64,000 nt of DNA from Oscillospiraceae bacterium (GTDB taxonomy: Bacteria > Bacillota > Clostridia > Oscillospirales > Ruminococcaceae). A program made the position numbers and the translations under genes. Where the stretch lies: assembly GCA_016281125.1 (NCBI GenBank), contig JAEEIA010000063.1, positions 49,896 through 113,895 on the forward strand, read 5' to 3'. Position 1 is the stretch's first letter, and each line of letters starts with the position of its first letter. Under the pieces are notes generated by a model that saw nothing but the letters and a program-made list of their open reading frames with translations, was not told the DNA's origin and did not search any database. This document shows, in pieces, positions 54,069 to 64,000 of this stretch.

Positions 54069-55472
54069 ATGAAAAAGGCACTTTCATTGCTCGCAGCACT
54101 CAGCTTGATGGCGTCGTTCACCGCTTGCGGTACCGACAAGCCTGCTGACACCCCGGCTTCCACTCCGGATTCCCAGGCAGAGGTTGAGTCCAGCACCGAG
54201 GAGTCTTCTGAGACCCCTCCGTCCGGCGATAAGAGAGAGCTCAAGGTCTGGGCTTTCACCACTGAGGTTCCGGGCATGGTCACCAAGTACATGGAGCTGA
54301 ATCCTGATTTCGCAGCTCAGTACGAGATGAAGGAATCCGTTATCGCTACCACCGACGGTGCATATCAGCCGGCTCTGGATGCTGCTCTGGCAGGCGACGA
54401 AGTCGATATGTATGCTGCTGAGGCTGCCTTCATTCTGAAGTATTCTCAGGGCGAAGCTGCAAAGTATGCTGCTCCGTACGAGGATCTGGGCATTGATGTT
54501 GATGCAAAGATCAAGGAAGCTGAGATCGCACAGTACACTGTCGATATCGGTACCAATCCTGACGGCAAGGTTGTCGGTCTGGGCTACCAGGCAACCGGCG
54601 GTGCTTTCATCTACCGTCGTTCCATCGCAAAGGACGTTTTCGGCACGGATGATCCGGCAAAGATCAAGGAAGAAGTCGGTCCGGGCTGGGACAAGTTCTT
54701 TGAGGCAGCTGCAAAGCTGAAGGAAAAAGGCTACGGCATCGTTTCCGGTGACGGCGATATCTGGCACGCAATCGAGAACAGCTCCGATACGGGCTGGGTT
54801 GTCGATGACAAGCTGCACATTGATCCGAAGCGTGAAGAGTTCCTCGATCTCTCCAAGAAGCTGATGGACAATGATTATCACAATGATACCCAGGACTGGC
54901 AGGAAGGCTGGTTCGCTGATATGGCTGGCACGGGCAAGAAGGGCATCCTCGGCTTCTTCGGTCCGGCATGGCTGATCAACTACACTCTGAAGGACAACTG
55001 CGGCGACACATTCGGCGACTGGGCAGTCTGCGAGCCTCCGGTTGGCTTCTTCTGGGGCGGCACATGGGTCCTCGGCGCTAAGTCTTCCGAGAACAAGGAA
55101 GCTGTCGGCGACATCATCGAGTGGATCACCCTCGATACTTCTGAGACCGGCCTCCAGTACATGTGGGCAAACGGCACCTTCGCACCGAACGAAGACGGCA
55201 CTCCGGGCACCAAGGACTGCGTCGCTTCCGGCGTTGTCATGGCAAAGTCCGACGGTAAGGTCGACATCCTCGGCGGCCAGAACATGTTCGACGTGTTCGT
55301 TCCGGCAAACCAGTTCGCAAACGGTAAGAACCTCACTCCGTACGATGAGGACATCAACACCGCATGGCGTGATCAGGTTCGTCAGTACACCTCCGGCCAG
55401 AAGACCAGAGATGCTGCGATCGATGACTTCAAGCAGGCTGTCTCCGACAAGCTCGCTATTGATGCAGAGTAA
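54069..55472 (+). CDS. ABC transporter sugar-binding lipoprotein
   Basis: 467 aa, start ATG with TAGGAGG. Lipobox SFTAC, an acidic Ser/Pro linker, then a type 1 (UgpB/MalE-like) solute-binding domain (about 55-460: KVWAFTTEVPGMVTKYMELNP, YAAEAAFILKYSQ). It captures sugars outside the cell and hands them to the permeases encoded next. From its place after GH3 and xylA, xylo-oligosaccharides are the likely ligand. Codon bias is very strong, so expression is likely high. Confidence 0.93.
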   Translation: MKKALSLLAALSLMASFTACGTDKPADTPASTPDSQAEVESSTEESSETPPSGDKRELKVWAFTTEVPGMVTKYMELNPDFAAQYEMKESVIATTDGAYQPALDAALAGDEVDMYAAEAAFILKYSQGEAAKYAAPYEDLGIDVDAKIKEAEIAQYTVDIGTNPDGKVVGLGYQATGGAFIYRRSIAKDVFGTDDPAKIKEEVGPGWDKFFEAAAKLKEKGYGIVSGDGDIWHAIENSSDTGWVVDDKLHIDPKREEFLDLSKKLMDNDYHNDTQDWQEGWFADMAGTGKKGILGFFGPAWLINYTLKDNCGDTFGDWAVCEPPVGFFWGGTWVLGAKSSENKEAVGDIIEWITLDTSETGLQYMWANGTFAPNEDGTPGTKDCVASGVVMAKSDGKVDILGGQNMFDVFVPANQFANGKNLTPYDEDINTAWRDQVRQYTSGQKTRDAAIDDFKQAVSDKLAIDAE

Positions 55473-55506
55473 TACTCTGTAACCCCAAGAGAAATCTGCT
55501 GCGTAA

Positions 55507-55538
55507 GGGAGCAGGCAGGATCTATGCTGTCTGCTCCC
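55507..55538 (+). other. Stable hairpin between binding protein and permease genes
   Basis: A 12-bp stem GGGAGCAGGCAG/CTGTCTGCTCCC with an 8-nt loop and no U-run. Such intercistronic hairpins usually protect the binding-protein message, so more binding protein than permease is made; a partial terminator is the other option. Confidence 0.6.
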
Positions 55539-55566
55539 TGACAGCAAATGAGAGGAGGCGTTTTCT

Positions 55567-56559
55567 TTGAAGTCGGCACAAAGTCGGATTAAAAGCATCT
55601 CGAATGCGAAATACGGCTATTTGTTCATCATCCCGTTCGTGGTCGTGTATCTGATCTTCCACCTGTATCCGACGATCTATACGATGGTTCTCGGATTCAC
55701 GGATTGTAAAGGTCTGAATAACACGAACTGGCACCTGCTGAAGGGCAATATCTTCACCAACTTCCAGCAGATCCTCCAGAACAAGTCTTTCCAGACTTCT
55801 GTTAAGAACACGATCGTAATCTGGATCATGAACTTTATTCCGCAGATCTCGCTTGCGATGCTTCTGACTGCTTGGTTCACTGCAAGACGCATCACTGTAA
55901 AGGGTCAGGGTATTTTCAAGGTGATCTTTTACATGCCGAATATTATTACGGCGGCAACGATTGCAATTCTGTTCCACGCACTTTTCAGCTACCCGACAGG
56001 TCCTGTCAATGACTTGCTTCAGAGATTGAATCTTCGGGACGGCTCTTACAACTTCTTTATCAGCAAACCGGCCTCGAAGCTCATTGTTGCCTTCATCCAG
56101 TTCTGGACATGGTACGGCTATACAATGATCATCCTCATCTCGGGCGTGTTGGGCATTAGCCCGGATATCTATGAGGCAGCTGATATCGACGGCGCAAACG
56201 GCGTTCAGATCTTCTTCAAGATCACGATTCCGAACCTGAAGACGATTCTGCTGTATACGCTTGTCACCTCCCTGATCGGCGGTCTGAACATGTTCGATAT
56301 TCCGAAACTGTATCTGAACGGCGGTCCGGATAACTCTACCAAAACGGCATCTGTGTTCATTTATGAACAGGCTTTCTCCGGAAAGTATCTTTATAACCGT
56401 GCATCGGCTGCAAGTATGCTGATGTTCATAGTCATCGCGATCTGCTCTGCAATTCTGTTCTATCTCATGCGTGATAAGGACGCCGCAGCGCTTGCGAAAC
56501 TGAAAAAGCAGGAACGTAAAGCTGCTGCAAAGCGTGCAAGCACGCAAACATGGAGATAA
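55567..56559 (+). CDS. ABC transporter permease (MalF/UgpA-like)
   Basis: 330 aa, TTG start after GAGGAGG. About six membrane segments; the EAA loop region reads YEAADIDGANGVQIFFKITIPNLK, which contacts the ATPase. It forms half of the sugar importer. The next permease starts 12 nt later. The basic C-terminal end (KLKKQERKAAAKRASTQTWR) is cytosolic. Confidence 0.94.
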   Translation: MKSAQSRIKSISNAKYGYLFIIPFVVVYLIFHLYPTIYTMVLGFTDCKGLNNTNWHLLKGNIFTNFQQILQNKSFQTSVKNTIVIWIMNFIPQISLAMLLTAWFTARRITVKGQGIFKVIFYMPNIITAATIAILFHALFSYPTGPVNDLLQRLNLRDGSYNFFISKPASKLIVAFIQFWTWYGYTMIILISGVLGISPDIYEAADIDGANGVQIFFKITIPNLKTILLYTLVTSLIGGLNMFDIPKLYLNGGPDNSTKTASVFIYEQAFSGKYLYNRASAASMLMFIVIAICSAILFYLMRDKDAAALAKLKKQERKAAAKRASTQTWR

Positions 56560-56571
56560 GGGGGTATTGTG

Positions 56572-57444
56572 ATGAGTAAAACGAGTTACGATGAGCCGAA
56601 GTCGGCAAAAGGCCCCGCATATTACGGTTATAAGGCATTTCAGTACATTTTTCTGATTTTCCTTGCGATCATGAGCTTACTTCCGTTTGTCATCATGATC
56701 ATCAATGCAACGAGAAGCAGAAGCCAGATTGAGTCCCACGCGATCTCGCTGATTCCGGGTAAGAATCTGCTGGTCAACTGGAAGGTCTTCAACGGTAAGT
56801 CCTTCAATGTTACCACCGGTTTCCTCAACTCGGTCATCGTTTCGACCGGTGCGACGTTCTGCTCCGTGTACTTCTCGACCATGACAGCATTCGCAATCGT
56901 TGCGTATGACTGGAAATTCAAGAAACCGTTTTTCACGTTCATTATGTGTGTTCTGATGATTCCGCCACAAGTCACGTCGATCGGTATGTATCAGTTTATG
57001 TACAGCATCGGCATGACGAACAAGCTGCTTGCTCTGATCATTCCGGCGGTCGCGGCGCCTGCTACTGTATTCTTTATGAGACAATACATGGCCGGTGCGC
57101 TTCCGATGGAGATTCTGCAATCTGCGCGTATTGACGGTGCGGGCGAGTTCCGTATTTACAATCAGATCGCACTCCCGATGATGAAGCCGGCTATGGCGAC
57201 GCAGGCGATCTTCGCTTTCGTTTCCAGCTGGAACAACCTGTTCCTCCCGCTGATCCTTCTGACCGACAAGAAGAAATTCACGATGCCGATCATGGTCAGC
57301 CAGCTGAACGGCGACATCTACAAGACTGAGTACGGTGCAGTCTATCTTGGACTGACGCTCACCGTTCTCCCTCTCTTCGTCATCTATTTCCTGTTGTCAA
57401 AATACATCATCGCCGGTGTTGCACTTGGCGGTGTTAAGGAGTAA
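56572..57444 (+). CDS. ABC transporter permease (MalG/UgpE-like)
   Basis: The ATG at 56572, 7 nt after AAGGGGG, is preferred over the GTG at 56569; 290 aa. Six membrane segments, EAA loop QSARIDGAGEFRIYNQIALPMMKP, ending GVALGGVKE as usual. The window has no ATPase gene for this importer; in Firmicutes a shared MsmK-type ATPase encoded elsewhere usually serves several sugar importers. Confidence 0.94.
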   Translation: MSKTSYDEPKSAKGPAYYGYKAFQYIFLIFLAIMSLLPFVIMIINATRSRSQIESHAISLIPGKNLLVNWKVFNGKSFNVTTGFLNSVIVSTGATFCSVYFSTMTAFAIVAYDWKFKKPFFTFIMCVLMIPPQVTSIGMYQFMYSIGMTNKLLALIIPAVAAPATVFFMRQYMAGALPMEILQSARIDGAGEFRIYNQIALPMMKPAMATQAIFAFVSSWNNLFLPLILLTDKKKFTMPIMVSQLNGDIYKTEYGAVYLGLTLTVLPLFVIYFLLSKYIIAGVALGGVKE

Positions 57445-58972: not shown

Positions 58973-59518
58973 TTAAATACTGCGGACGTCGCGGAGCAGA
59001 GAGGCGAGCATGGAATAATGCAGCGCGGCCAACCGCTCCGGCGGGGTGCGGTATCCGCAGTGCGCCCATGAGATTACGGTGCCGATGCAGCCGTTGACAT
59101 AAAACAGCACCGCCAGCTCCTGCGTTTCGGAGAGCTTTCCGCCGCCGAGGCTTTCCTGTACGCGCGCGCGGATGCGGTCAGCCTCCTGCTGGAAGATGAA
59201 CTTCGGCAGCAGTGCGTTCATCTCGTCGTTATAAAGCCGCTTGTAAAACAGCTGATGCCCCCGGATCGTTTCCAGATACGCGGTCAGCTGCGCCGCGGAG
59301 TAGTTTCCGCCGAACTGCGCAAGCGCCGTGTCCCAGTCGCGGAACAGCATCCACTGCGCAAGATCGTACTTATCCTTGAAATGATAGTAAAAGGTCTGCC
59401 GTTCGGCTCCGCACTGCTGGCAGAGCGCCGTGATGCTGACCTTCTGCATCGGCGTTGTTTTCAGCAGCTCATCCAATGCCTGCGCAAGCATGGTTTTTGT
59501 TGCATCACGAATCCCCAT
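58973..59518 (-). CDS. TetR-family transcription regulator
   Basis: The ATG at 59518, 6 nt after AAGAGG, is preferred over the TTG at 59524; 181 aa. Helix-turn-helix (about 15-50: MQKVSITALCQQCGAERQTFYYHFKDKYDLAQW) and a helical ligand-binding part, with the FYKRLYND block and length of the DhaS/TetR_C-type regulators. The ligand is unknown. It is divergent from the CE15 operon and its leader, so that is a possible target, but the two promoters are separate. Confidence 0.88.
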   Translation of the reverse strand: MGIRDATKTMLAQALDELLKTTPMQKVSITALCQQCGAERQTFYYHFKDKYDLAQWMLFRDWDTALAQFGGNYSAAQLTAYLETIRGHQLFYKRLYNDEMNALLPKFIFQQEADRIRARVQESLGGGKLSETQELAVLFYVNGCIGTVISWAHCGYRTPPERLAALHYSMLASLLRDVRSI

Positions 59519-59562
59519 GGTCAACCTCTTCTCTGTTATTGTTATTCATTCTCTATATTTTT

Positions 59563-59591
59563 AGTATAACATATCTTCACTTTGTTGTCAA
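59563..59591 (-). promoter_or_regulatory. Promoter of the TetR gene
   Basis: On the minus strand TTGACA, a 17-bp spacer, TATACT (complement of 59563-59568). Confidence 0.82.
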
Positions 59592-59626
59592 TGTATAAAA
59601 ACTAGACAGTTTATGCTTTTTGTATG

Positions 59627-59655
59627 GTGACAACGCCCCGGAACCATGCTATAAT
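59627..59655 (+). promoter_or_regulatory. Promoter of the CE15 leader and operon
   Basis: GTGACA at 59627-59632, a 17-bp spacer, TATAAT at 59650-59655. Transcription would start about 59662, some 310-330 nt before the CE15 start codon. Confidence 0.72.
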
Positions 59656-59672
59656 ATATTTGTATTGGGAAG

Positions 59673-59872
59673 TATGGACTGCCGGTGACGGCAGCATATA
59701 GACTTATGGTAAAATAGAAAGATACAGGCAAAGATAGAAATTGTATTTGGGGGATCATACTGGAAACACGCTTGTGCAAAGCAGTGTGGTCTTGTTGTCT
59801 GTATCTTTTTTCATGGATATGATAAAGAACGTCAGCGGCCTTTCTGTGTATGCACGGAAAGGCTGCTTTTTT
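59673..59872 (+). ncRNA. Structured 5' leader with an intrinsic terminator (riboswitch-like)
   Basis: Hairpin 1: TATG-ga-CTGCCG-GTGA-CGGCAG-CATA (59673-59698), closed by a GNRA loop. Hairpin 2: a 10-bp stem AAAGATACAG/CTGTATCTTT (59718-59727 with 59799-59808) enclosing GATCATACTG/CAGTGTGGTC (59753-59762 with 59782-59791) with an inner CAC/GTG. Hairpin 3: a 15-bp stem (59834-59848 with 59853-59867) followed by TTTTT, a clear terminator. A terminator about 100 nt before the gene in its own leader suggests controlled readthrough. I match no known riboswitch by eye. Confidence 0.6.
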
Positions 59873-59988
59873 GCTGCCGGTGCATGCTGCCGTGTGATCC
59901 TTCGGATCGGTTGGGAGGTGAATCCTTTTTTGCAGAGTGAGAGGTTGCCATTTTCGGGGAGAAATAATAAATGGGGAGTAAAAACATT

Positions 59989-61554
59989 ATGAAAAAAGGA
60001 AAGGGTTACTTTGTGAAATCAACAGCAGCTGCAACAGCTGCAATGCTCGCGCTGACAGGCCTGATCTGTCTGCAATCCTCGGCGGCGGATGCGCCGTCTG
60101 TGACCGGCGATCTGTCCGGAAACGGATTTCTGGATGCTGCCGACCTCTCTTTGATGAAGGCGGGCGTCCTTACGGAATCAAAGGATGCCGCATTCAAAAC
60201 GACCGGCGACGTCAACCAGAGCGGTGCGGTCAATGAAAAGGATACCGCGATGCTGCGGGAATACCTGCTCACGAAAATAACCGCTTTTGAAAAGGGAGAG
60301 CCGGACGGTGAACCTTCCTCGGAGATTCCGACCTTTGAGAAGTCCTATAATTTCCCGTCGGTTTCCTCGCTGAAAGCCAGCAATGACGTTCCTGACCCGT
60401 TCGTCTTCCAGGACGGCTCCAAGGTTGAAAGTCCGGATGACTGGTGGCGGCGGCAGGCTGAGATCAGCTGCATGTATGAGTATTACATGTACGGTGTCTG
60501 GCGTGACGGCTCTGATGACGAAGTCAGCTACAAGATCAGCGGAAACAGCATGACGATCACGGTGAAGCGCAAGAGCACGGGCAAGACCGCTTCCTTCAAG
60601 GCTGTCATCAATCTGCCGAAGCAGGTTCGTCACGAGGGCGGTGCTCCGGTCGTTCTCGGTATGCACAAGGGCATTTCCGAAAGCACTGCGACCGCAAACG
60701 GCTATGCAGTTATTACCTACGACAGCGACGGCATGTTCTCTGCACCGGGAACCGCCGCTGACAACAATCAGCATACCGGTGCATTTTATGATCTTTATCC
60801 CTACGGAAGAAACTGGGACGAACAGACCGGCGATCTGATGGCTTGGTCCTGGGGTATCAGCAGAATCCTGGATGCGCTCTATCAGGGCGCAGGCAAGGAG
60901 CTGAATATCAATCCGGACAGCTCCATTGTGACCGGTGTTTCCCGGTACGGCAAAGCGGCCGCTGTCTGCGGAGCCTTTGAGCCGCGCATCAAGATGTGCG
61001 CACCGTCCTGTTCAGGCGCAGGCGGTCTGGCGCTTTACCGTTACAAATCCGAAGGCAAAACATACGACTTTTCCAGTAAAGGCGGATCAGCAAGATATAC
61101 CTATGATCAGAACGAGCCGCTCGGCAGCTTGCAGGCTTCCGGCGAGCAGGGATGGTTCAACGGCAGGTTCATGGAGTTCAAAGCTGAAAACCAGATCCCG
61201 GTCGATCAGCATATGCTGGCATCCCTCTGTGTCAATCCGAACCGGTATCTGTTTATTATCTGCTCGTGTCAGAATGAAAACTGGGTCAATGCACCGGCGC
61301 AGTGGATGACATATCTTGGCGCAAAGCGCGTGTTTGATTATGTCGGCCTCAGCGACCATATCGCAATCAATGTGCATTTGTCCGGTCACGCTGTCATCGA
61401 AGAAGATATGAAGTACATGATGGCATATTTCGATCATCATGTTTACGGCATGGAATCGAAGATGGATCTCAGTAATCTGACACATTCTCCGTTTGAGCTT
61501 GATAAAAACAAGGATTCGTTTGCTGACACCTTTACGAAAAACTGGATTCATTGA
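59989..61554 (+). CDS. CE15 glucuronoyl esterase with N-terminal dockerin
   Basis: 521 aa from ATG 59989 (MKKGKG...); ATG 59971 is the other option, as each has GGGGAG upstream. Signal peptide (about 1-33), type I dockerin (about 40-95: GDLSGNGFLDAADLSLM, GDVNQSGAVNEKDTAML), then CE15 (about 115-521). The serine lies in the family block GVSRYGKAA (Ser318 in this numbering); His is likely in INVHLSGHAV. CE15 enzymes break the ester between lignin alcohols and 4-O-methyl-glucuronic acid of xylan. The dockerin at the N-terminus is less common than at the C-terminus. The next gene starts 16 nt after its stop. Confidence 0.9.
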   Translation: MKKGKGYFVKSTAAATAAMLALTGLICLQSSAADAPSVTGDLSGNGFLDAADLSLMKAGVLTESKDAAFKTTGDVNQSGAVNEKDTAMLREYLLTKITAFEKGEPDGEPSSEIPTFEKSYNFPSVSSLKASNDVPDPFVFQDGSKVESPDDWWRRQAEISCMYEYYMYGVWRDGSDDEVSYKISGNSMTITVKRKSTGKTASFKAVINLPKQVRHEGGAPVVLGMHKGISESTATANGYAVITYDSDGMFSAPGTAADNNQHTGAFYDLYPYGRNWDEQTGDLMAWSWGISRILDALYQGAGKELNINPDSSIVTGVSRYGKAAAVCGAFEPRIKMCAPSCSGAGGLALYRYKSEGKTYDFSSKGGSARYTYDQNEPLGSLQASGEQGWFNGRFMEFKAENQIPVDQHMLASLCVNPNRYLFIICSCQNENWVNAPAQWMTYLGAKRVFDYVGLSDHIAINVHLSGHAVIEEDMKYMMAYFDHHVYGMESKMDLSNLTHSPFELDKNKDSFADTFTKNWIH

Positions 61555-61570: not shown

Positions 61571-64000
61571 ATGAAATCTATTCAGGCGACAGCAGCCGGC
61601 ATTCTTCTGGCTGCATCCCTTCTGCCGGTTTCGGCGCTCGGCGGCATTTCCGCTGCCGCGGCGGGTTCCGGCGATCTGAACGGCGACGGCAAGGTCACGT
61701 CCGCCGATGTCCGGATGCTCCAGCAGTATCTGCTGACAAAATCCGGGCAGTTATCTGACTGGCGCGCAGGCGATCTGAACAGTGATCAGTACCTGGACGC
61801 CATGGACCTTTCTCTCATCAAGCGCATTGCTCCGGCTGAGGAGGAGGATCCCGATCCTGTGTATATCCACCTGAAAGGATCGTCGATTACCTCTGAGGGC
61901 GGAAATGTCGATATCTCCGGCAAGACCGCGACGATCTCCGCTTCCGGCATCTATTATATAGACGGAACGCTGGACGGCGGACAGATCCTCGTGAACATCC
62001 CTGACGAAACCGTTGATTCCAAAACCGTCAAGCTGTTCCTGAACGGTGTGAAAATGACAAATAACAGCGCACCGTGCATCATGATCGAGAATGCGGAGAA
62101 TACCTCCGTCAATCTCGTTGAAGGAAAGGAAAATGCGCTTTCTGACGGCAAGGACGCTCCGGCGGCTGAAGTCGAACCGCAGTACGCTGTGCTGCATGCA
62201 AAGGATGACCTGACAATCAAAGGTGACGGCAGCCTGATCATTACAGCCGGCACCGAGTACGGCATCCACTGCAACAACGACCTCAAGCTCAACGGCGGCA
62301 CGCTCTCTGTCACAACAGAAAACACCGACGGCATCCGCGGAAGGACTTCCCTGACAGTCAAGGACGGATCCGTGACGGTGGACAGCGAGGGCGACGGCAT
62401 CAAATCGACAAAGGGATCGGTTTCGGTCATCGGCGGCAATGTGTCTGTCAAATCCAGCAAGGATGCGATTCAGGCGGAAACGACACTGGAGCTCACCGGC
62501 GGTACGGTGCAGGCATGCGGTGACCGCGGCCTCACGGCGCCTCAGATCAGTCTGGACGGCTGCACACTGCTTGCAACCGCTACGGACAATCAGTGCGAAA
62601 CCCTCGGCAAACCCGCACAGAACACCATCGTTGTGGATCTGACAAAGGAGTGGTCGAAGAATAATCCGATTGCTCTGACAAACGGTTCCGGACGGACAGT
62701 CTTTGACCGGAACACCCTCAAGAAATTCCGTTACGGCATTCTCTCTGCTCCGGAGCTGGACAGCAGTACCGGCTATGAGCTGTATGTCGGCGGCATTCAG
62801 GTCAAGCAGAACGGCAGCGGCAGCTTCAAGGCGGGATCCCCGGCGGCATACACCAATGTCAACAATACCGTCACCGATACAAAGCTGCTTTACGGCGATC
62901 TGTTTGATCAGTCCAAGGTACACCGCATTGAGATCACCATGCCGAACTGGTCACAGTTCCTTTCCTCCTGCGATCAGCAGAAAGAGGACTGGTATCCCTG
63001 TGACGTCAAGATCGACGGCGAGGAGATCAAAAACGTCGGAATCCGTGCCAAGGGCAACAGCTCTCATATGTTTGTTGCACAGGCAGGCAGTGCAGGAAAG
63101 GGCAAATACAGCTGGCGCATGAAGTTCGATAAGTACGACAAATACGGCAATTATCACGGTCTGACTGAGATCTGCATGAACAACATGTATTCCGATCCTT
63201 CCTGCATGAGAGATATTCTGTGCTACAATGCCTGCTACGAGGTCGGCAGCTATGCACCCGAATGCGCGTATACGAATATGTACGTGAACGGGGATCTGTA
63301 CAGCTTCTATTTCCTCGCAGAGCAGCCGGGCACGACACTCGCCGAGCGCCTTGCGACCAAGGATGACGCGGTCTTCTACAAGGCAATCGACAAGACGAAT
63401 GCGCAGGGCAGCTATGACTGCTCGTTCAAATCCAGCATGGCACTGGATAATTTTGAGGTCAAATGGGGCACGGATGATCAGCTCAAGCATATTGATGAAA
63501 TCAAGCAGGCGATCAACAAGCTCACATCCTCAAATTACAAGTTCATCGAGGATATCATTGACGTGCCGAGCTTTTTGCAGGGCTTTGCCGTCAATGCCAT
63601 GATGTGCAACTACGACAGCTATAACGGCATGATGCCGCACAACTTCTATCTCGAGTATGACAACGGCAAAATGTACTATGTCAGCTGGGATTTCAACCTG
63701 TCGCTGGGCAATTTCATGGACAACGGCGCATCCGTCAATTCGGACATTAACACCGGCATGTACCAGACGCAGATTGCGGACCGTCCGCTTTTGAAGCTGC
63801 TGGAGGTTCCGGAGTACAAGAAGCTGTATGACGGCTATGTCCGGCAGATCATGCAGATGTACAGCAATCCGGAGCAGACGGTCAATAACATCGCGAAGGT
63901 GATCCGGAACGATGTCAAGGCCGACCCGCGCTTCTTCTTCACCGCTGACCAGTTTGAAAAGAACATTGCCAAGAGTGCAAACGGTCTTCAGGTTTCCGGA
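61571..64000 (+). CDS. Dockerin-DUF4353-CotH protein, 3' end cut by window edge
   Basis: Not in the ORF track since it leaves the window. The ATG at 61571 follows AAGGGTG; 810 codons are visible. Signal peptide (about 1-30), N-terminal dockerin (about 34-95: GDLNGDGKVTSADV, GDLNSDQYLDAMDL), DUF4353 beta-helix (about 100-380, EYGIHCNNDLKLNGGT, GDGIKSTKGSVS), then a CotH kinase-like domain (from about 460: GIRAKGNSSHMF, CMRDILCYNAC, VSWDFNLSLGNF). DUF4353 relatives bind pectin-like sugar; bacterial CotH proteins are thought to be secretory kinases or surface linkers. Probably in one operon with the CE15 gene and under its leader RNA. Confidence 0.88.
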   Translation, partial: MKSIQATAAGILLAASLLPVSALGGISAAAAGSGDLNGDGKVTSADVRMLQQYLLTKSGQLSDWRAGDLNSDQYLDAMDLSLIKRIAPAEEEDPDPVYIHLKGSSITSEGGNVDISGKTATISASGIYYIDGTLDGGQILVNIPDETVDSKTVKLFLNGVKMTNNSAPCIMIENAENTSVNLVEGKENALSDGKDAPAAEVEPQYAVLHAKDDLTIKGDGSLIITAGTEYGIHCNNDLKLNGGTLSVTTENTDGIRGRTSLTVKDGSVTVDSEGDGIKSTKGSVSVIGGNVSVKSSKDAIQAETTLELTGGTVQACGDRGLTAPQISLDGCTLLATATDNQCETLGKPAQNTIVVDLTKEWSKNNPIALTNGSGRTVFDRNTLKKFRYGILSAPELDSSTGYELYVGGIQVKQNGSGSFKAGSPAAYTNVNNTVTDTKLLYGDLFDQSKVHRIEITMPNWSQFLSSCDQQKEDWYPCDVKIDGEEIKNVGIRAKGNSSHMFVAQAGSAGKGKYSWRMKFDKYDKYGNYHGLTEICMNNMYSDPSCMRDILCYNACYEVGSYAPECAYTNMYVNGDLYSFYFLAEQPGTTLAERLATKDDAVFYKAIDKTNAQGSYDCSFKSSMALDNFEVKWGTDDQLKHIDEIKQAINKLTSSNYKFIEDIIDVPSFLQGFAVNAMMCNYDSYNGMMPHNFYLEYDNGKMYYVSWDFNLSLGNFMDNGASVNSDINTGMYQTQIADRPLLKLLEVPEYKKLYDGYVRQIMQMYSNPEQTVNNIAKVIRNDVKADPRFFFTADQFEKNIAKSANGLQVSG

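Follow-up and report, generated by a model that had tools for sequence, protein, structure and literature searches.

Introduction

The transcription-attenuating riboswitch leaders of the Bacillota combine a promoter-proximal structured domain with an intrinsic terminator, and one strand is common to the domain and the antiterminator. In the BglG/LicT (RAT) and ANTAR leaders of sugar and nitrogen operons, a terminator is likewise opposed by an alternative RNA fold, and LoaP-dependent polysaccharide operons are secreted polysaccharide-related operons that carry a leader hairpin. Here we consider a leader of this general kind in front of genes for cellulosome-associated proteins, among them a CotH kinase-like protein; CotH proteins are found in several cellulosomes, and their role there is not clear (2025 review, PMC12484212).

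The leader lies in a stretch of 64,000 nucleotides from the genome of an Oscillospiraceae bacterium (hereafter the window), between a divergent TetR-family gene on the minus strand and the gene of a CE15 glucuronoyl esterase, where it extends for ∼330 nt after its promoter (region 59662-59988). It has the structured domain and the intrinsic terminator of the Bacillota riboswitch leaders, and most of its homologues have the shared strand as well, but it differs from them in lacking an Rfam match and in being tied to one genus and one operon within the searched scope. In contrast to RAT and ANTAR leaders, it carries, by inspection, neither a RAT-like hairpin overlapping the terminator nor tandem hexaloop hairpins, and unlike in LoaP systems, nearly all genomes encode a single NusG-family protein and the evidence favours strand exchange at one terminator. 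The reading we prefer, with a probability of about two in three, places the element, as a diverged member, in a family of cis-acting CotH-operon leaders that is restricted to one lineage and would control its operons by regulated transcription termination.

Results

Architecture of the leader and its operon

The features of the locus, all on the plus strand except the first, are the following, with the basis of each assignment in brackets where it applies:

58973-59524, minus strand: TetR-family gene, divergent from the leader
59627-59655, plus strand: sigma-70 promoter GTGACA-17-TATAAT with extended -10 (TG), matching 11 of 12 positions
59672-59699, plus strand: 5' hairpin with a GUGA tetraloop (GNRA) and a 2-nt bulge (fold prediction; subgroup covariation)
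59717-59738, plus strand: P1, 5' strand (fold; swap test on homologues)
59741-59753, plus strand: asymmetric 5' bulge UUGUAUUUGGGGG (single match of the core model R1 in the 64-kb window; per-leader bulge comparison)
59753-59762, plus strand: P2, 5' strand GAUCAUACUG (fold; P2 swap test)
59782-59791, plus strand: P2, 3' strand CAGUGUGGUC (pairs with 59753-59762; CAGCGGUGUUUC and variants in homologues)
59792-59811, plus strand: P1, 3' strand, plus U-run at 59806-59811 (sequence, fold)
59834-59867, plus strand: intrinsic terminator of 15 pairs with a 4-nt loop and a U-run from 59867 (subgroup covariation)
59951-59959, plus strand: post-terminator motif UUUUCGGGG, corresponding to UUAGGGGGA upstream of the start codon in homologues (by eye)
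59989-61554, plus strand: first gene, CE15 glucuronoyl esterase with type I dockerin (Pfam GCE_fung 4e-43, Dockerin_1 5e-9)
61571-64000, plus strand: protein with dockerin, Cthe_2159 carbohydrate-binding domain and CotH kinase-like domain (Pfam); the gene extends past the window end

The promoter puts the predicted start of transcription near 59662, so that, as in transcription attenuators, a promoter stands upstream and an intrinsic terminator lies inside the 5' leader. Promoters scoring 9-12 of 12 occupy the equivalent place in 27 of the 28 homologous leaders described below, and the lone exception, L090, is an artefact of the point at which the element was cut, its sequence containing GTGACA-17-TATAAT.

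Folded as a whole, the leader reaches -108.2 kcal/mol, against -86.3 ± 4.8 kcal/mol for shuffled sequences (z = -4.5, 0 of 100 shuffles). The three hairpins that the initial annotation had drawn directly from the sequence are all present: the 5' hairpin with its GNRA loop and 2-nt bulge, which pairs as GUAUG-(GA bulge)-CUGCCG-GUGA-CGGCAG-CAUAU; a middle domain (59717-59808) built of an outer stem P1, an inner stem P2 and the asymmetric 5' bulge; and the terminator, whose 15 pairs and U-run are as had been proposed. The arms of P1, AAAGAUACAG/CUGUAUCUUU, do form the 10 continuous pairs ascribed to them (59718-59727 with 59799-59808), and the U-run at their end is also there. The further suggestion that the middle domain could itself be a terminator does not generalise, because a U-run after P1 is limited to the window, L017, L018 and L060. 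The bulge is the best conserved unpaired element, with the pattern 'UU..GGG' in nearly all leaders.

A promoter, a structured body and a terminator together make a complete transcription unit, and the segment 59662-59873 could thus be a free-standing small RNA that ends at the terminator, with the CE15-CotH genes transcribed from a promoter of their own that went unrecognised; in the window, a still shorter RNA could arise at the U-run that follows P1. We regard this as unlikely: the element keeps an invariant place and strand before the same operon, no conserved sigma-70 promoter follows the terminator across the 28 leaders, no promoter-like site scoring at least 9 of 12 was found between terminator and gene in the window, and the antiterminator pairing described below would serve no purpose in such an RNA.

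On the coding side, the CE15 start is best taken as the ATG at 59989, with GGGGAG at 59973-59978, because the same arrangement is retained in L017 and L018. A motif of the UUAGGGGGA type precedes the start codon in L019, L020, L022, L023, L024, L028, L030, L056 and L191; it lies 3' of the terminator, resembles the bulge of the leader core, as does UUUUCGGGG in the window, and is present even upstream of L191, an operon without a leader. Between the TetR gene and the leader promoter (59530-59625), the stretch ACTTTGTTGTCAATGTATAAAAACTAGACAGTTT is near-identical in L017 and L018 and similar in L073, and is likely to be a TetR operator beside the leader promoter, in the window's subgroup only. 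Upstream of the TetR gene and on the same strand, at 54069-57444, are genes that read as a carbohydrate ABC transporter (a binding protein and two permeases).

Homologous leaders precede CotH operons in one genus

The window and ten homologous loci gave no match to any Rfam 15 family at or above the gathering threshold, the T-box covariance model included, in keeping with the initial annotation, which could place the leader in no known riboswitch class. The sole near-match was BTnc231 (RF04180), which the leader resembles in having long hairpins followed by a terminator; its score of 16 bits falls far short of the threshold of 80.4, and with E = 1.4 the match is one of chance.

The leader DNA itself was too diverged for blastn, which returned no second copy in its own genome and just a downstream fragment in genome G015. 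This fragment, which corresponds to the post-terminator part of the leader, gave the first homologue; other weak matches looked like chance. Further homologues were reached through a search with the CE15 protein and the regions upstream of its orthologues, in which a TTGACA/TATAAT promoter is followed by a small hairpin, a core (of the form UUUUAGGGGAAACGCG...CAGCGGUGUUUC), an intrinsic terminator (e.g., AACAGCCGC...GCGGCUGUUUUU) and then the gene. A covariance model of the core, R1, built on ten leaders without the window, retrieved further leaders, and searches with CotH added paralogous operons with leaders of their own (L085/L151, L086/L116, L073/L090, L104, L110, L111, L114 and L196). The resulting set comprises 28 leaders, the window included, each with promoter, core and terminator before a CotH operon. 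Sequence divergence among them is strong, yet the architecture is kept: promoter, 5' hairpin, P1 with the 5' bulge 'UU..GGG', P2, terminator.

The CotH gene is the constant partner of every homologous leader, whereas the CE15 gene is missing from some of the operons. In genomes G010, G013, G017 and G006, which gave no CE15 match, the leader directly precedes CotH, and for this reason we assign it to CotH. The initial description of a leader of a CE15-CotH operon therefore stands in so far as the leader does precede such operons, but its association is with CotH and not with CE15.

The hosts belong to one genus, represented mostly by assemblies of uncultured Oscillospiraceae/Ruminococcus from gut and rumen. 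CotH operons are also present in R. flavefaciens and in other genera of the family, where no such leader was seen upstream, and three CotH operons within the genus (L191, L197 and L198) are without one. With R1, a search of the family and the order that took in ∼800 genomes produced nothing convincing; marginal matches outside the genus, with E-values of 1e-3 to 1e-2 over ∼400 genomes each, are at chance level and were dropped. One of these, in the leader before murA in another genus (L067; G409, around position 1500), is partly core-like (CTCTTTTTTAGGGAAACCCGC...CCCGGTGTTTCTG, E = 0.003 in ∼400 genomes) and probably also a chance match, with no terminator seen. Another match of the model, L061 (G016:C31, positions 1-700), is false and falls on a minisatellite of ∼68-bp units (TTTTTAGCAGTTAAACGCAAATTTGCC...). 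The R. flavefaciens-like CotH operons L108, L109, L113, L115, L118 and L123 share a conserved leader stretch of another kind, 'ACGGGAAAAGGGTTACTGAAAA' or one like it.

In the window, R1 has a single match in 64 kb, at 59741-59794 (11 bits, E = 0.73). On held-out leaders the model marked the right place in L026, L060, L085 and L018 and missed most of the second subtype, so the homology of the subtypes rests on position, architecture and neighbouring gene no less than on sequence. Judged by sequence comparison, the window leader is a diverged member of the family. A search of the open-access literature found no description of such a leader, and the family is real, conserved and apparently undescribed, putatively of the transcription-attenuation kind, and confined to a single genus and a single operon within the searched scope.

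Compensatory changes in the helices

Compensatory changes, which the initial annotation had proposed to look for in homologues, were found. The window forms subgroup A6 together with L017, L018 and L090. There, 88% of the cells of the three helices are paired and two-sided compensatory changes occur in 9 of 30 pairs, distributed with 3 of 7 pairs in the 5' hairpin and 4 of 11 in the terminator among others; the covariation score is 0.378, compared to 0.221 ± 0.040 for shuffles (0 of 500) and 0.07-0.161 for slid structures. The larger group A has two-sided changes in 9 of 43 pairs (0 of 500 shuffles on score, 4 of 500 on two-sided pairs).

Because P1 is too different to be aligned across groups, it was assessed by partner swapping. 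Pairing energies of its flanks are -16.7 kcal/mol with the partner from the same leader and -11.6 kcal/mol with partners from other leaders (z = -7.1, p < 5e-5; control z = +0.3) over 22 homologues, which are related, so that leader counts are not independent; with one leader per subgroup, the effect persists at z = -6.0. The P2 arms, matched versus swapped, give z = -3.9. These comparisons indicate that the structure of the leader is under selection. In group A, the GGGG bulge and a CCCU after P1 could form a pseudoknot, which by eye is not kept in the other groups.

A strand shared between P2 and a predicted antiterminator

A search along each whole leader for the most favourable partner of the terminator 5' arm ends at the P2 3' strand in 26 of the 28, where shuffled leaders would give 5.6; the exceptions are the window and L090. 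With one leader per subgroup, this antiterminator pairing reaches -17.0 kcal/mol when matched and -14.0 kcal/mol when swapped (p < 2e-5), with terminator boundaries set by hand and partner strands picked after the sequences were seen; the control 5' region shows no matched-versus-swapped effect (z = +0.2). In L058, for example, GCGGUGUUUC pairs with GAAACGCCGC over ten pairs, one of them U-G. Both competing strands vary between subgroups, and the second subtype pairs, e.g., CGGUGUAUUUUCUG with CAGAAAAAAGCCG. For transcripts that end ahead of the terminator 3' arm, folding predicts an ensemble dominated by the antiterminator in 11 of the 28, among them L017, a near relative of the window; in about half of the homologues, P1/P2 is the predicted thermodynamic winner even before the terminator is complete.

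The pairing suggests a mutually exclusive choice between P2 plus terminator (OFF) and antiterminator (ON). According to the fold models, the functional part of the middle domain is the P2 3' strand, which would choose between P2 and the terminator 5' arm. The readthrough switch that had been supposed from the window alone is thus the likely purpose, given the antiterminator strand in most homologues, but the competition is weak in the window copy.

There, P2 is strong, the P1/P2 fold has unusual stability and folding predicts no antiterminator (AT = 0). Among the possible partners of the terminator arm, the P2 3' strand ranks second, at -13.7 kcal/mol; the first is a segment of the 5' hairpin (59670-59691 with 59826-59849, -20.5 kcal/mol), which is complementary to the terminator 5' arm at 9 of 10 positions and is outranked by another partner in L017 and in L018. 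This pairing may be due to chance or may represent a replacement antiterminator. The window copy may accordingly be mostly OFF, may use the 5' hairpin instead, or may have lost the switch, and since its antiterminator is weak, the switch mechanism is here derived mainly from its relatives.

The three-way strand competition recalls trp-type attenuators, in which a ribosome on a leader peptide decides between the folds, and in some leaders (L017, L018 and L022) a start codon does follow the GGGG. A conserved short frame with a Shine-Dalgarno site, however, is not found: reading frames are not conserved between leaders, and many leaders, the window included, have no frame with a Shine-Dalgarno site, which makes ribosome-mediated attenuation highly improbable.

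Candidate ligands and trans-acting factors

Regulated termination could be set by an RNA-binding protein, acting as antiterminator or terminator protein. A short conserved bulge containing GGG beside a stem would suit a protein site, the second UUAGGGGGA motif before the start codon recurs in most members and in the leaderless L191 too, and the genome encodes one ANTAR protein. Against this, the leader is, by inspection, without the paired hexaloop hairpins of ANTAR targets, and the other known factors gave no candidate. CsrA, raised by the GGA-containing bulge, is encoded in 0 of 30 genomes of the genus and was dropped. Of the 26 genomes with a NusG match, 25 lack a NusG paralogue, and the window's own genome has a single NusG-family protein, making LoaP-type antitermination unlikely. 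BglG/LicT (RAT) antitermination was dropped because the window's genome (∼96% complete) encodes no BglG-type CAT_RBD protein. We consider control by a protein rather doubtful.

As a special case of our preferred reading of a cis-acting leader family, the leader may be a true riboswitch, in which P1, P2 and the UU..GGG bulge form the aptamer for a small molecule or ion, for instance a sugar of the plant cell wall or a second-messenger molecule, and the ligand favours termination or readthrough. We hold this as a tentative possibility. The fold is aptamer-like and conserved with covariation (P1, P2, the 5' hairpin and the UU..GGG bulge), as expected of a metabolite riboswitch: a conserved unpaired bulge is flanked by two variable stems, terminator and predicted antiterminator are mutually exclusive in the family as a whole, the search gave no candidate protein factor, and the leader is tied to a single kind of gene. 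On the other hand, strict conservation covers a small unpaired part and the core has diverged within a single genus, features seldom seen in a metabolite aptamer; Rfam offers no match; and the distribution covers a single genus and a single operon within the searched scope.

Discussion

The computational observations comprise the folds with their covariation, an architecture that stays fixed, the association with the operon and, in most homologues, the competing pairing. The mechanism that we propose for the CotH leader family builds on them as follows. Transcription would start near 59662, and P1 and P2 would fold first. As long as P2 keeps its 3' strand paired, the downstream terminator would form and the operon would be silent; where P1/P2 does not form, the P2 3' strand would pair with the terminator 5' arm and allow readthrough into CE15-CotH. 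The 'UU..GGG' bulge between P1 and P2 would be the likely recognition site for the cue that sets this balance. That termination takes place in vivo, which of the two states is the default, and that there is a cue at all, we infer from the predicted structures.

A more specific and rather speculative reading is that the family represents a new riboswitch class for the cellulosome-associated CotH operons of uncultured rumen Oscillospiraceae, working by terminator/antiterminator control, with a ligand linked either to the breakdown of plant cell walls or to the kinase activity of CotH.

The family offers a ready test system of ∼28 natural variants for which terminator and antiterminator are predicted; switching is expected to be strong in some (L021, L022, L024, L029 and L057) and weak in the window copy. 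If it is true that CotH operons carry a dedicated, fast-evolving RNA switch, this would give a handle on when these bacteria make CotH, and the cue of such a switch would hint at CotH function.
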